Positions 3,243 to 10,061 of a DNA stretch of 36,182 nucleotides are shown one piece after another. Source of the stretch: Candidatus Methanoperedens sp. (GTDB taxonomy: Archaea > Halobacteriota > Methanosarcinia > Methanosarcinales > Methanoperedenaceae); assembly GCA_021409285.1 (NCBI GenBank), contig JAGFND010000012.1, positions 1 to 36,182 of the forward strand, in the 5' to 3' direction. Under the pieces are notes generated by a model. It had not been told where the DNA came from and searched no databases. It saw only the letters and a list, made by a program, of their open reading frames with translations. The position numbers were made by a program, and so were the translations under genes. The number at the start of each line of letters is the position of its first letter. Position 1 is the first letter of the stretch.

Positions 3243-3266
3243 AAAGGCGGCTATATAGCCTCCTTT
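3243..3266 (-). terminator. Hairpin at the glnK stop codon, possible transcription terminator
   Basis: The perfect palindrome GGCTATATAGCC (3249-3260) extends, with one mismatch, to a 24-bp dyad (3243-3266). It overlaps the stop codon of glnK. On the minus-strand transcript it is followed by U-containing AU-rich sequence but not by a strict U-run, so terminator function is a guess. Confidence 0.35.
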
Positions 3267-3589
3267 CCGCGCTCTCCAGTGCTGATACGTACGACATCTT
3301 CAACAGGATAGATGAAAATCTTCCCATCGCCTTTCCCACCCGTTCTGGTGACTTTGATGATCGCTTCTATAGCGGTTTCCACATCCTTGTCGTCCAATAT
3401 CATTTCCATCTTGATCTTTGGCAGGAATTCAATACAGTATTCACCTGCTCTCCACTGCAGGCAAACGCCTTTCTGACGTCCGCGACCCTGCACTTCTTCT
3501 ACGGTCATGCCAACGATACCTCTCTCTTGAAGAGATACCCGAACACTATCAAGATCTTCTGGCCGTATTATTGCCTCGATTTTTTTCAT
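3251..3589 (-). CDS. glnK: Nitrogen regulatory PII protein GlnK
   Basis: 112 residues starting M-K-K-I-E-A-I-I-R-P, the standard PII N-terminus. A longer reading from 3685 is possible but overlaps amtB and adds non-homologous residues. The ATG at 3589 has a ribosome binding site (AGGGGATC) just upstream. GlnK senses ATP/ADP and 2-oxoglutarate and plugs the ammonium channel when nitrogen is plentiful. The T-loop is recognisable: G-R-G-R-Q-K-G, then E-Y-C with the tyrosine equivalent to Tyr51 of enteric PII. The ATP-binding segment T-G-G-K-G-D-G-K-I-F is intact. It lies 10 nt behind amtB on the same strand, the classical amtB-glnK pair. Confidence 0.95.
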   Translation of the reverse strand: MKKIEAIIRPEDLDSVRVSLQERGIVGMTVEEVQGRGRQKGVCLQWRAGEYCIEFLPKIKMEMILDDKDVETAIEAIIKVTRTGGKGDGKIFIYPVEDVVRISTGERGKEAI

Positions 3590-3599
3590 TTTGATCCCC

Positions 3600-4901
3600 T
3601 CATGCATAAGCTTTCTCAGCGTGCTGGGAAATGTCCAATCCAACTGATTCCTCTTCCTCTTCGACACGCAAACCAATGGTAGCATCTATGACCTTTGCAA
3701 GTATTATGGTCATGACAAAAGCGTATATCCATGTCACAGCTACTGCAATTATCTGTGTTACAAGCTGTCCGGGATTACCGTAGAGCAATCCATTTGCTCC
3801 TAAAGGATTTACAGCTACTGTAGCGAATATGCCTGTGGCTATTGCACCCCAGGTTCCGCCCAGGCCGTGACATGCCCATACATCAAGGGAATCATCCACG
3901 TTCTGCCTGCTCCGGAAGAGCATCGCATAGTAACTGATGACCGCTCCCACCACTCCTATTACGATCGCGGCCATCGGTGTAACAAAACCAGATGCAGGAG
4001 TGATTGCTACCAGTCCTACCACACCGCCTGTGGCTGCACCAAGAACACTGGGTCTCTTGTGGTACCAGCTAAGAAGCGTCCACATCAATGCAGCCGCGGC
4101 TGCAGCTGTATTGGTTACCACAAATGCGCTTGCTGCAAGTCCATTGCTTGCTAATGCACTGCCTCCATTGAATCCGAACCAGCCGAACCATAGGAGTGCT
4201 GCGCCAAGAACGACCATAGGTATGTTGTGCGGTTCCATGGCCTGCTTCCCGAATCCCTTTCGTTTGCCGATCACATAGGCGATGGCGAGGGCCGAAACCC
4301 CTGAGCTTATGTGTACAACTGTACCTCCGGCAAAATCAAGCGCACCCATGTTGCGAAGCCAGCCGCCTGTTCCCCATACCCAGTGAGCTATCGGGTCGTA
4401 GACAATAGTTGCCCAGAACAGGGAGAATACCATGAAGGCCTTAAATTTTATGCGTTCAACAAATGCGCCTGAAATGAGCGCTACTGTAATTATTGCAAAC
4501 ATCGCCTGGTATATCATATATGCCAGAGCCGGAATGGTTGCCGCATAATCAGGATTTGGTTCCTGGCCTACCCCGTTAAGTCCCAGCCAGTGCAGGTTTC
4601 CGATAACTCCTCCCACGTCAGGGCCAAAGGAAAGGCTGTATCCGTAAAGCACCCACTGAATGCTTATTAATGCAAGAATTACAAAACTGAACATTATCGT
4701 AGAGAGTGCATTTTTCTTTCGCACCATCCCGCCGTAGAACAAACCCAGGGCAGGTGTCATTATCATTACCAGCGCTGCACTCGTAAGAATCCACGCGGTG
4801 TCACCTGTATCTACTTTTGTGGCTTCCGCTGCAAAAGCAGGTACACAGAGCAGTAGAAGACTCATTATTACTGAACAGTATATCGATTTTTTGATTTTCA
4901 T
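3600..4901 (-). CDS. amtB: Ammonium transporter Amt
   Basis: 433 residues. A hydrophobic signal-like segment ending A-F-A-A (about 10-25) precedes the eleven-helix channel. The paired pore histidines are visible as H197 (in G-T-V-V-H-I-S-S-G) and H345 (in W-A-C-H-G-L-G-G), and the D-F-A-G-G-T motif before the first is characteristic of the family. The protein conducts ammonium/ammonia across the cytoplasmic membrane and is gated by GlnK, encoded directly downstream. A strong Shine-Dalgarno (AGGAGGAT on the minus strand) lies 8 nt before the ATG. The gene diverges from nifH, and both are expected to be nitrogen-regulated. Confidence 0.97.
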
Positions 4902-5892
<991 letters not shown>

Positions 5893-5896
5893 GAAC

Positions 5897-6214
5897 ATGA
5901 AGATGATACGGGCAATAATCAGACCAAACAAAGAAGAAAAAGTCGTGGAACACCTGGAAAAAGAAGGTTTCTATTCCCTCACAAAGATGAACGTGTTCGG
6001 GCGCGGCAAACAGAAGGGAATCATGGTAGGGACAGTGTGCTATGACGAACTGCCCAAGGTTATGCTAATGCTTGTTGTTGAGGATGCAGAAGCCCAGAAG
6101 GCAATAAAAGTCATCCAGAACAGCGCCCGCACAGGGAATATCGGCGACGGTAAGGTCTTTGTGACCGATGTTTCAGAGGCATACACGGTGAGGACAGGCA
6201 CCTCAGGATTATAG
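5897..6214 (+). CDS. nifI1: Nitrogenase PII-like regulator NifI1
   Basis: 105 residues from the ATG at 5897, beginning M-K-M-I-R-A-I-I-R-P. An in-frame ATG at 5867 lies inside nifH and would add residues not found in PII proteins. The start is preceded by GAGAGGTGAG and sits 4 nt after the nifH stop. NifI1 acts with NifI2 to inhibit dinitrogenase directly when 2-oxoglutarate is low and ammonium is available (known from methanogens). PII hallmarks are G-R-G-K-Q-K-G at the T-loop base and T-G-N-I-G-D-G-K-V-F in the nucleotide-binding loop. The T-loop is shorter than in GlnK, as expected for NifI1. Confidence 0.95.
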   Translation: MKMIRAIIRPNKEEKVVEHLEKEGFYSLTKMNVFGRGKQKGIMVGTVCYDELPKVMLMLVVEDAEAQKAIKVIQNSARTGNIGDGKVFVTDVSEAYTVRTGTSGL

Positions 6215-6222
6215 GTGAGATA

Positions 6223-6600
6223 ATGAAGGAAGTTATCGCCATAATACGAAGACACAATTTGCAGGAGACAAAAGCAGGTCTTCTTGGAATAGGTGTTCCC
6301 GCGATCACAATGGTGAGCGTGGAAGGAAGGGGCAAACAGAAGGGACTGCCTGGCTGGAATTATGAACTTGATCCCGCATTAATGGAGCTGGAGGAGAAAA
6401 ATACTGGCGTAAGCTTGCGCTTTATCCCTAAACGGATGATATCAACCGTGGTCGAGGATGAGGACGTACCAAAAGTGGTTGAGACCATTATTAGAACGAA
6501 CCAGACAGGGCACATTGGAGATGGTAAGATCTTCGTGTGTCCTGTGGAAGATGCTGTGAGAGTAAGAACAGGAGAAAACGGAGAACAGGCGATAAAGTAA
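6223..6600 (+). CDS. nifI2: Nitrogenase PII-like regulator NifI2
   Basis: 125 residues, 8 nt after nifI1. It starts M-K-E-V-I-A-I-I-R-R and carries the PII T-loop base G-R-G-K-Q-K-G followed by an enlarged loop (P-G-W-N-Y-E-L-D-P). The nucleotide-binding segment is T-G-H-I-G-D-G-K-I-F, and the C-terminal V-R-V-R-T-G-E is present. The longer T-loop distinguishes NifI2 from NifI1. The pair forms a hetero-oligomer that blocks NifDK post-translationally in archaea. With glnK this is the third PII-family gene within 3.4 kb. Confidence 0.95.
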   Translation: MKEVIAIIRRHNLQETKAGLLGIGVPAITMVSVEGRGKQKGLPGWNYELDPALMELEEKNTGVSLRFIPKRMISTVVEDEDVPKVVETIIRTNQTGHIGDGKIFVCPVEDAVRVRTGENGEQAIK

Positions 6601-6624
6601 GAAAATAAAGCGGAGAGAGAAAAA

Positions 6625-7995
6625 ATGACAACAATATTACCGGAATGCGATATACCAATACCTCAGCGTCAGACGCATATCATATGCCATGACCCGGAGA
6701 ACATGGTATTGCCCATGTGCAATGTACAGACTGTACCTGGAGACATGACCGAGCGAGGCTGCACGTTCGCAGGTTGCAGGGGAGTAGTTGGAGGTCCTGT
6801 AAAAGATGCTATCCAGCTTGTTCATGGGCCAATTGGCTGCGCATACTATACATGGGGCACGCGACGAAACCTTTCTGACACGAAGCTGCACAGGAAGTAC
6901 TGTTTCAGCACAGACCTGACAGAAGAAAGTGTGATATACGGGGGAGCAAAAAAACTGCTGAATTCTATAATAGAATCACATGAACTGTTTCCTGAAGGAA
7001 AGGCAGTGTTTGTCTATTCCACATGCGTTGTTGGGCTAATAGGCGACGATACCGAGGCTATATGCAGGCAGGCTTCTGAGAAGATCGGGATACCTGTTAT
7101 AGCATTCCACTGCGAGGGCTTCCGTGGTGTGAGCCAGTCACTCGGCCATCATATAGCCAACCGCACGCTGTTTGAAAAAGTAGTTGGAACATCAGAACCT
7201 GAAATAACAACTCCTTACGACATGTGCATTGTCGGTGAATTCAACATCGACGGGGATGCATGGATAGTCAAGCCATTGTTTGAAAGGATGGGCGTGCGGG
7301 TACTTTCTGTATTTACAGGCAACGCCTCTTATGCTGACATTCCCCCTATGCACAGGGCAAAGTTGAATATCGTGCAATGCCAGAGATCATCCACCTATAT
7401 CGCAAAGATGATCCAGGAAAAGTACGGTGTCCCTTACATCAACGTGTCCCTGTTTGGAATGGAGCAGACAGCACAGGCTCTTCGTGATGTTGGCAAGTTC
7501 TTCCACCTTGAAGAGAATGCCGAAAAAGTGATAGCAGAAGAGCTTGCAAAGTACCAGCCTTTGATCGATCAATATAGAAGGAAACTCGATGGCAAGAAGT
7601 GCTTCATCTACCAGGGAGCTCCACGAGCCTGGCACTGGATGGGACCAATGCGGGAGCTTGGCATCGAAACGATCCTCACGGCAACGACATTCGGCCACAG
7701 GGACGATTATGAGAAAATAATAGAGAAGGCGAAGCCAGGGCATATCTGTATAGATAACCCCAATGCACTTGAGATCGAGGAATACCTGGTCAAGCTCAAA
7801 CCTGATTTCTTTATCGGAGGCTTGAAGGAGAAATACCTTACATATAAGCTTGGCATTCCCTTTATCAATGGTCATTCCTACGAAGAAGGGCCGTATGCGG
7901 GCTTTGAAGGATTCGTGAATTTCGCAAAGGATATTGATGTTGCGGTGAATAGCCCTGTGTGGAAGTTCATCAACTATCCACTGGAGGTGAAGTAA
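6625..7995 (+). CDS. nifD: Nitrogenase alpha chain NifD
   Basis: 456 residues. P-cluster cysteines are C46 (E-R-G-C), C72 (G-P-I-G-C) and C134 (Y-S-T-C). FeMo-cofactor ligands are C252 (N-I-V-Q-C-Q-R-S) and H417 (N-G-H-S-Y). Active-site residues equivalent to Azotobacter Gln191, His195 and Arg96 are Q171, H175 and R80. The gene is joined directly to nifK with no delta-subunit (anfG/vnfG) gene between, so the architecture is that of a Mo-nitrogenase. Some segments (P-R-A-W-H-W and G-F-E-G-F-V-N-F) resemble vanadium/iron nitrogenases more than Azotobacter NifD, as often in archaeal lineages. It also lacks the roughly 50-residue insertion of clostridial NifD. Metal type is inferred. Confidence 0.95.
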   Translation: MTTILPECDIPIPQRQTHIICHDPENMVLPMCNVQTVPGDMTERGCTFAGCRGVVGGPVKDAIQLVHGPIGCAYYTWGTRRNLSDTKLHRKYCFSTDLTEESVIYGGAKKLLNSIIESHELFPEGKAVFVYSTCVVGLIGDDTEAICRQASEKIGIPVIAFHCEGFRGVSQSLGHHIANRTLFEKVVGTSEPEITTPYDMCIVGEFNIDGDAWIVKPLFERMGVRVLSVFTGNASYADIPPMHRAKLNIVQCQRSSTYIAKMIQEKYGVPYINVSLFGMEQTAQALRDVGKFFHLEENAEKVIAEELAKYQPLIDQYRRKLDGKKCFIYQGAPRAWHWMGPMRELGIETILTATTFGHRDDYEKIIEKAKPGHICIDNPNALEIEEYLVKLKPDFFIGGLKEKYLTYKLGIPFINGHSYEEGPYAGFEGFVNFAKDIDVAVNSPVWKFINYPLEVK

Positions 7996-9360
7996 ATGGC
8001 TTTGATGAACCAGAGTTCTGAGCCTATCAAGACGGTTCAAAAACCTCGTAGCGTAACAATTAATCCGCCCAAGATGTGTCAGCCCATGGGCGCAATACTT
8101 GCTTACATGGGAGTTCACGGCTGCGTTCCGCTGGTGCATGGTTCCCAGGGATGCAGCACGTATCCCCGCTACAATATCGCAAGGCATTTCAGGGAATCAG
8201 CAGAAGTTGCAGTCTCATCGCTTGCCGAGGATGCTGCAGTATATGGGGGAGCCAGGAACCTGACGGAAGCCATAAAGAATGTCAAGTCCAGGCTGAACCC
8301 AGATGCTATTGGTATTTGTACCACGTGCATGAGCGAAACCATAGGCGACGATGTGAAACTGATATCAAAGAAGGCACTTACCCCTGGTGATGCGGTGAAG
8401 ATATTCCCGGCGTCCACCCCAAGTTATGTTGGCACGCACCTGACAGGATATGATAACGCCCTGCGGACGCTTGTGGAAACGATGGCAATAAAAGGTGTAG
8501 CAAATAACAAAATAAACATTATCACCGGAATAATCAACCCCGGCGACATCAGGGAAATAAAGAACATGCTGCGCTTAATGAATGTGAAGAGCATATTCCT
8601 TTCCGACATCTCGGATACCCTTGATTCTCCCATATTGCCCGGAGGGCAAAAACCCGTACTGCCAGATGGGGGAACGAGTATAGGAGATATCGCAGATTCT
8701 GCAAACTCACTGGGCACAATAGCGATATGCAGAACAGCAGGTTCGGCGGCTACATATCTCAAGAACAAATTCAATGTGCCTTCTGTACTTGAGCCTGCAC
8801 CTATAGGAGTGATCAACACGGACAGGTTTGTACATAATATCTGCAAGTTAAGCGGTGTCTCGATCCCGGATGATATCATAAAGGAGCGCGGACGCCTGAT
8901 AGACAGCATGGTGGATGTTCACCATTATATGTACGGCCGCAAAGTCGCGATATTCGGTGATCCTGATCTTGTGTCTGCAATCGTAAGATTCTGCGCGGAA
9001 GCAGGGATGAATCCCACAGTAGCGATGACAGCTACGAAACATAAGGATTTTGCACCTGACATAAGGGCTGTGAATACTGAATATAAGACAGATACACAAA
9101 TCCTTGAAGGTACAGATCTTTACGAATTCCACGAGGTTGTAAAAAACCATGGAGCCGAATTGATACTTGGCAACTCCAAGGGGAAGGACGTCGCAGATGA
9201 TGAAGGCGTTCCACTTGTGCGATTCGGGTTCCCGGTCTATGACCGCGTTGGTGTGTATCGCTATTCCATCATGGGATATAGCGGTTCGGTATACCTTCTT
9301 GACCAGATGACAAACGCTATCCTGGGGCACAAATATGATCCCAACAAGCTGCACCAGTGA
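7996..9360 (+). CDS. nifK: Nitrogenase beta chain NifK
   Basis: 454 residues, beginning at the base after the nifD stop; the ribosome binding site GGAGGTGA (7983-7990) lies within the nifD 3' end. P-cluster cysteines are C28 (P-K-M-C-Q-P), C53 (G-S-Q-G-C) and C111 (C-T-T-C-M-S-E-T-I-G-D-D). The chain lacks the long N-terminal extension of the Azotobacter protein and resembles the short clostridial/archaeal type. NifK pairs with NifD in the catalytic alpha2beta2 tetramer. In many methanogens nifE and nifN follow; here the next frame is a damaged ferredoxin gene. Confidence 0.96.
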   Translation: MALMNQSSEPIKTVQKPRSVTINPPKMCQPMGAILAYMGVHGCVPLVHGSQGCSTYPRYNIARHFRESAEVAVSSLAEDAAVYGGARNLTEAIKNVKSRLNPDAIGICTTCMSETIGDDVKLISKKALTPGDAVKIFPASTPSYVGTHLTGYDNALRTLVETMAIKGVANNKINIITGIINPGDIREIKNMLRLMNVKSIFLSDISDTLDSPILPGGQKPVLPDGGTSIGDIADSANSLGTIAICRTAGSAATYLKNKFNVPSVLEPAPIGVINTDRFVHNICKLSGVSIPDDIIKERGRLIDSMVDVHHYMYGRKVAIFGDPDLVSAIVRFCAEAGMNPTVAMTATKHKDFAPDIRAVNTEYKTDTQILEGTDLYEFHEVVKNHGAELILGNSKGKDVADDEGVPLVRFGFPVYDRVGVYRYSIMGYSGSVYLLDQMTNAILGHKYDPNKLHQ

Positions 9361-9369
9361 GGTGATATT

Positions 9370-9557
9370 ATGGAATACATAACAGGAATAACAGCATCAG
9401 GCGGGGGCTGGATTCCCACCTTTGTGTTAAGAAGCAATATCAACGAGTGCGGATGCTGTGGAAAATGTTTCAAGATAACTGCATCGGCTGCGGCGCATGC
9501 GCGCGGGGGTGTCCGAAGAAGAATATTGTGTGCGAGCCGAAGGTCGTGGGCAGGTGA
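9370..9557 (+). pseudogene. fdxB: Decayed FdxB-type (nif-associated) 2[4Fe-4S] ferredoxin
   Basis: A normal start (GAGGTGAT ribosome binding site, ATG 9370) opens with M-E-Y-I-T-G-I-T and W-I-P-T-F, the N-terminus of nif-associated FdxB ferredoxins. A first cluster motif follows, spaced C-x2-C-x2-C (N-E-C-G-C-C-G-K-C-F-K). At about 9474 this frame stops making sense. A different frame from 9474 to the TGA at 9555-9557 reads D-N-C-I-G-C-G-A-C-A-R-G-C-P-K-K, a perfect second cluster motif and the C-terminus of such ferredoxins. The 45-50 residues that normally separate the motifs are missing and the reading frame is broken. I read this as an internal deletion that killed the gene. An assembly error is possible. 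Confidence 0.75.
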
Positions 9558-9573
9558 TAGAAGCAGAGAAATC

Positions 9574-9646
9574 TCACCGCAAAGTTCGCAAAGAACGCAA
9601 AGATTATTGTTGATCTGCTTTGCGCCCTCTACGTTCTTTGCGGTGA
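9574..9646. repeat. Palindromic intergenic repeat built on CGCAAAG units
   Basis: The left arm TCACCGCAAAG is followed by two further copies of the CGCAAAG unit. The right arm (9632-9646) ends CTTTGCGGTGA and is the reverse complement of the left end. The whole can fold into a long imperfect hairpin and resembles short intergenic palindromic repeat elements rather than a coding sequence. It sits directly behind the decayed ferredoxin and could also end nif transcription. No second copy was noticed in this window. Confidence 0.65.
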
Positions 9647-9671
9647 TTAAAACTTAACGAGGCAAAGAAAT

Positions 9672-10061
9672 ATGTCCAAAATCAGCCACATCCTCCTTCC
9701 AAACCCGGAGGTCGTTCCCACCGGGACGACACTTGTTGAGGCTTCAAAGCTCATGAAGAAAAATAAGATCACAAGCGTGCTTATTAGTAAGAACGGCAGG
9801 CTTGCCGGTATTATCTCAGTGGAAGATGTCATGCAGTGCGTGGCAGAGAGAACAAATCTGGATATTTCAGTGGAGGAAATCATGCACTCGCCTGAACTGA
9901 TAATCGATTCGGAGAAATGGCTTATGGATGCCATTGCTATGTTCGGGCGCTGCAAGGCTTCCCATATAACAGTTGTGGAAAATGGGGAGAAGGTAGGCAT
10001 TATCAGAGCTGAGGATATATTGCATACTTATAGGTTTATGAAGATGGAAGTTGAAAAATAA
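9672..10061 (+). CDS. CBS-domain pair protein
   Basis: 129 residues consisting of two CBS domains (about 10-60 and 70-127) and nothing else. Repeated features are I-T-S-V-L-I-S-K-N-G-R-L-A-G-I-I-S in the first domain and A-S-H-I-T-V-V-E-N-G-E-K-V-G-I-I in the second. CBS pairs bind adenosine nucleotides or S-adenosylmethionine and act as energy or ligand sensors on partner proteins. It is co-directional with nif but separated from nifK by the ferredoxin relic and the palindromic repeat, so a link to nitrogenase is only suggested by position. The partner is unknown. Confidence 0.85.
   Translation: MSKISHILLPNPEVVPTGTTLVEASKLMKKNKITSVLISKNGRLAGIISVEDVMQCVAERTNLDISVEEIMHSPELIIDSEKWLMDAIAMFGRCKASHITVVENGEKVGIIRAEDILHTYRFMKMEVEK

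Follow-up and report, generated by a model that had tools for sequence, protein, structure and literature searches.

The window analysed here, 36,182 bases in length, is an entire contig (C24) of a Candidatus Methanoperedens-type assembly, which comprises 2.78 Mb in 246 contigs and has a completeness of 97%. Its closest NifK relatives (90–92% identity) belong to Candidatus Methanoperedens, and in a nifHDK tree the window groups with L039, L040 and L048 (support 69; 100 for the next more inclusive groups). The usual operon order in Candidatus Methanoperedens is nifH-nifI1-nifI2-nifD-nifK-fdxB, and in the window all genes of this series up to nifK are intact (Table 1). What we take to be the cluster-ligand motifs of NifD and NifK were seen by eye in the translations. 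Genes for a P-II regulator and an ammonium transporter adjoin the operon on the opposite strand. When the genome was searched for nifE with TIGR01283, the only matches were nifD, nifK and a single further protein (377 residues, contig C232), and a nifB-like gene on contig C203 scored 290 bits, below the curated cut-off of 343.65. The nitrogenase set is thus a minimal one, consisting of nifHDK with nifI1/I2 (5068–9360) and the nifB-like gene, with nifE and nifN undetected in the genome. No relative was found in a NifK search of the viral_contigs set, and megablast of positions 7996–10061 against plasmids gave no match.

Table 1. Coordinates of the nif operon, the fdxB remnants and adjoining features in the window.
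Feature	Position	Strand	Remarks
P-II regulator and ammonium transporter genes	3251–4901	-	adjoin the nif operon
nifH	5068–5892	+	intact
nifI1	5867–6214	+	intact; named from P-II family match and position
nifI2	6223–6600	+	intact; named from P-II family match and position
nifD	6625–7995	+	intact
nifK	7996–9360	+	intact; stop TGA 9358–9360
Ribosome-binding-like stretch GAGGTGAT	9359–9366	+	overlaps the nifK stop codon
fdxB 5' remnant	9370–9477	+	in-frame codons 1–35
Open frame from the fdxB start	9370–9657	+	35 fdxB residues, then 60 unrelated
fdxB 3' remnant	9474–9557	+	different frame; DNCIGCGACARGCPKKNIVCEPKVVGR and stop ending at 9557
Deletion junction	9474–9478	+	88 bases confirmed by scripted fit; breakpoint ambiguous by a few bases
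REP-like imperfect inverted repeat	9574–9646		between fdxB remnant and CBS-domain gene
CBS-domain gene	9672–10061		after fdxB

Behind nifK, the gene for the ferredoxin FdxB is split into two pieces. It is preceded by a ribosome-binding-like stretch, the corresponding site of which reads TGAGG in 25 of the 26 aligned relatives and TAAGG in the remaining one (L023). The frame opening at ATG 9370 encodes MEYITGITASGGGWIPTFVLRSNINECGCCGKCFKI and continues with unrelated residues to a stop ending at 9657; a Pfam scan of this open frame gave no match. Cysteines C27, C29, C30 and C33 (C-x2-C-x2-C) are present in the 5' remnant and the fourth ligand, C37, is gone, while the 3' remnant lies in a different frame. 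Both pieces match the protein of an intact relative (E = 3.8e-18 and 86% for the 5' piece, E = 4.6e-11 and 70% for the 3' piece), and with such E-values their homology to fdxB is not due to chance, which bears out the earlier note's description of two out-of-frame fdxB pieces after nifK.

The distribution of the gene was followed in the relatives of the window. NifK was searched for in 60 related genomes, 30 of which are other members of the genus, and an orthologue was found in 25 of these 30 (79–92% identity, two as partial genes). The same 25 genomes carry a full-length open fdxB of 88–89 residues, 88–100% identical to the query, in a search that covered 31 genus genomes including that of the window; among these the window's genome alone has a broken fdxB, of which the two pieces were matched, and the short form was found in no relative. 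In two of the remaining genomes the search met nothing but a distant paralogue, and in three there was no match at all, both orthologous NifK and fdxB being absent from 5 of the 30. A comparison of the post-nifK region, which had been proposed as a check, therefore finds fdxB intact in all relatives within the genus that bear nif, and an fdxB directly after nifK is a fixed element of the nif operon in Methanoperedens (25/25). In four order-level relatives with more distant NifK (L035–L038, 51–52% identity), no fdxB was detected at E 1e-3 within 969–1500 bases on either side of nifK. A full-text literature search pairing "Methanoperedens" with "fdxB" found no paper.

By E-value, TIGR02936 (nif-specific FdxB, or ferredoxin III) is the NCBIfam family that the intact orthologues match best; all 24 intact relatives scanned match it at E 0.001 or better (best 2.1e-18). 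The curated cut-off of 80.55 bits is reached neither by the first part of the window gene (21.5 bits) nor by the intact L039 copy (66.2 bits). When the same model was run against 15 genomes whose NifK is different or more distantly related (one genus member, G004, and 14 non-members), none passed the cut-off and only G032 had a match directly after nifK, at 63.4 bits.

When the 25 copies from the genus are aligned with the window and with L063, a copy from the same family, the window is seen to lack one block of 88 bases, equal to 29 codons plus one base. Given one 88-bp gap, the junction agrees with 16 of 24 intact copies without mismatch over 15 bases. The flanks share four bases (GATA; three in one case) in the 5 of 24 relatives whose codon 65 is GAT, and mostly 0–1 bases where it is not. 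The deletion removes C37 of motif I, invariant in 24/24 intact copies, and shifts the frame. The deletion had been predicted to be internal and of a length that is no multiple of three, which is indeed what the alignment and the scripted fit reveal; its predicted size of about 140 bp, and the 45–50 residues supposed to separate the two parts of FdxB, have to be corrected to 88 bp, since the relatives carry 29 codons and one base there. All 24 intact orthologues possess the eight cysteines of a 2[4Fe-4S] ferredoxin in two C-x2-C-x2-C-x3-C motifs within one frame, whereas in the window motif I is without its fourth cysteine and motif II is out of frame. The window copy is homologous to intact genes and, in the assembly, disrupted in its frame, as expected of a pseudogene; translation from the normal start leaves fdxB after 35 residues, in agreement with the proposed inactivation.

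The gene is followed by a REP-like imperfect inverted repeat with 29-nt arms (79% complementary), the half-motif of which occurs 12 times in the genome when up to 2 mismatches are allowed, and the reversed control not at all; similar repeats occupy the equivalent site in several relatives. The CBS-domain gene beyond it is present in 24 of 25 taxa compared and, with pN/pS of ~0.27, evolves far faster than the nif genes.

Intact fdxB copies are under purifying selection among themselves, with 59 of 89 alignment columns invariant and means of pN 0.0475, pS 0.491 and pN/pS 0.097 over 276 pairs. Over the 58 shared codons, pairs involving the window have means of 0.053, 0.393 and 0.135, respectively, which ranks the window third of 25 taxa on these few codons; its three private residues are second to the four of one other taxon. 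Neither half contains a stop. The remnant thus still looks constrained, which suggests that it has not been relaxed for long, and the break would therefore be recent, or else a strain or assembly variant; low erosion speaks against long neutral drift and, as a sequence signal, fits each of these three equally. The catalytic genes evolve in an ordinary manner, as far as can be judged from a set in which some taxa are without some of them: pN/pS in window pairs versus other pairs is 0.051 versus 0.064 for nifH, 0.078 versus 0.075 for nifD and 0.128 versus 0.126 for nifK. With all three genes open, the claim that nifHDK remained intact holds.

No second intact fdxB was found in the genome, where the earlier note had advised looking for one: searches with a relative's protein and with TIGR02936 otherwise matched only general ferredoxins or ferredoxin domains, the next match being at E 0.0097. 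Other small two-cluster ferredoxins are encoded (L001, L005, L006, L069 and L072), and any of them might stand in for FdxB. A paralogue of FdxB (~100 residues, 37–42% identical) was matched 15 times, in 14 of the 31 genomes searched in the genus, its carriers including L098–L101 and two genomes without orthologous nitrogenase; at E 1e-8 the window's genome has none. This paralogue was rejected as a substitute because it sits away from the nif genes in both loci inspected.

Taken together, the fdxB remnant is probably a recent pseudogene of a conserved accessory ferredoxin. In the intact operon the last gene would provide a small 2[4Fe-4S] ferredoxin translated right after NifK, most likely an accessory to nitrogenase or to cofactor assembly. 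One 88-bp deletion, as present in the assembly, would have put codon 65 behind codon 36 in the wrong frame, and the product made from the normal start would be ferredoxin for its first 35 residues, in which motif I keeps three of its four cysteines, and nonsense thereafter, so that a two-cluster ferredoxin could not form. NifHDK and NifB remain intact, and another small two-cluster ferredoxin may supply the low-potential electrons or the assembly step. Conservation in 25/25 relatives and the barely eroded state of the remnant count against this reading.

The same observations could be accounted for if the deletion were an assembly artefact or a variant of a minority strain and fdxB were intact in the population, which we regard as rather unlikely. 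The constrained appearance of the remnant, the fragmented state of the assembly and the intact gene in all other nif-bearing relatives of the genus would agree with this. However, the junction flanks have only 0–4 bases in common in the relatives, far too few for a k-mer assembler to join them unaided, so some molecule or chimera must have carried the junction; moreover, no second, intact version was found when the contigs were searched, and the neighbouring genes compared are not broken in frame (among open reading frames from the neighbourhoods of four relatives, shadow frames apart, only fdxB is split in the window). An improbable alternative of similar standing is that the loss of fdxB marks the first visible step towards losing nitrogen fixation altogether; it is compatible with a recent pseudogene, and the confidences in the two overlap. 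The joint absence of orthologous NifK and fdxB from five genus genomes makes the distribution of the cluster patchy and would suit such a course, but the reading frames of nifH, nifD and nifK are open and their pN/pS is ordinary, and nifI1/nifI2, the nifB-like gene and the ammonium transporter are all present. Least credible by far is a gene that works in shortened form, either through a -1 frameshift producing a mini-ferredoxin of ~62 residues or through separate translation of the second frame. Both halves are indeed open and keep their motifs; yet no in-frame slippery heptamer was seen by eye at 9460–9476, the invariant fourth cysteine of motif I is missing, only a few residues would lie between the halves and no relative has the short form.

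How much the loss of FdxB would matter can be judged from characterised systems. Rhodobacter capsulatus FdIII (FdxB) is reported not to donate electrons to Mo-nitrogenase in vitro, and when N2 was fixed by Fe-nitrogenase, the doubling time of a strain with fdxB deleted was 10.49 h, compared with 10.31 h for the wild type (PMC10936413). In Methanocaldococcus FS406-22, too, growth on N2 is described as unaffected when the nif-cluster ferredoxin is deleted (PMC8809328). The assertion that the electron donor "must come from elsewhere" is therefore too strong, considering these harmless deletions and the four order-level relatives without fdxB beside nifK. No role as electron donor to nitrogenase has been proven for FdxB, which is a conserved, most likely accessory ferredoxin that can probably be dispensed with. 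Against dispensability stands its retention under strong constraint in 25/25 genus relatives: it must help in nature, so its loss would be costly or recent. A recent pseudogene may, more tentatively, represent a natural knockout, in which a wild N2-fixing archaeon has lost its operon ferredoxin and another carrier feeds the minimal nitrogenase or the NifB/NifDK cofactor route. If real, the deletion would amount to a natural single-gene knockout affecting nitrogenase in methane-oxidising archaea that have not been cultured; conserved fdxB would then count as accessory, raising the question of which ferredoxin feeds a nitrogenase without NifE/N.

Among known systems, the Methanoperedens copies resemble FdxB/ferredoxin III (TIGR02936) in their two C-x2-C-x2-C-x3-C motifs and their position in the nif operon; unlike that family, the window copy is broken, and even intact L039 scores below the family cut-off. 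The nif-cluster ferredoxin of Methanocaldococcus FS406-22 resembles the window's gene in its position as well, since it closes a nif operon of an archaeon at the 3' end, but that cluster possesses nifE, unlike that of the window (PMC8809328). The text describing the methane seep group nitrogenase of ANME archaea contains no word beginning with "fdx" (PMC9012536). Its nifHI1I2DK arrangement without nifEN, already known from these archaea (PMC9012536), is the one seen in the window, which is likened to this group by gene order and the absence of nifE/N.
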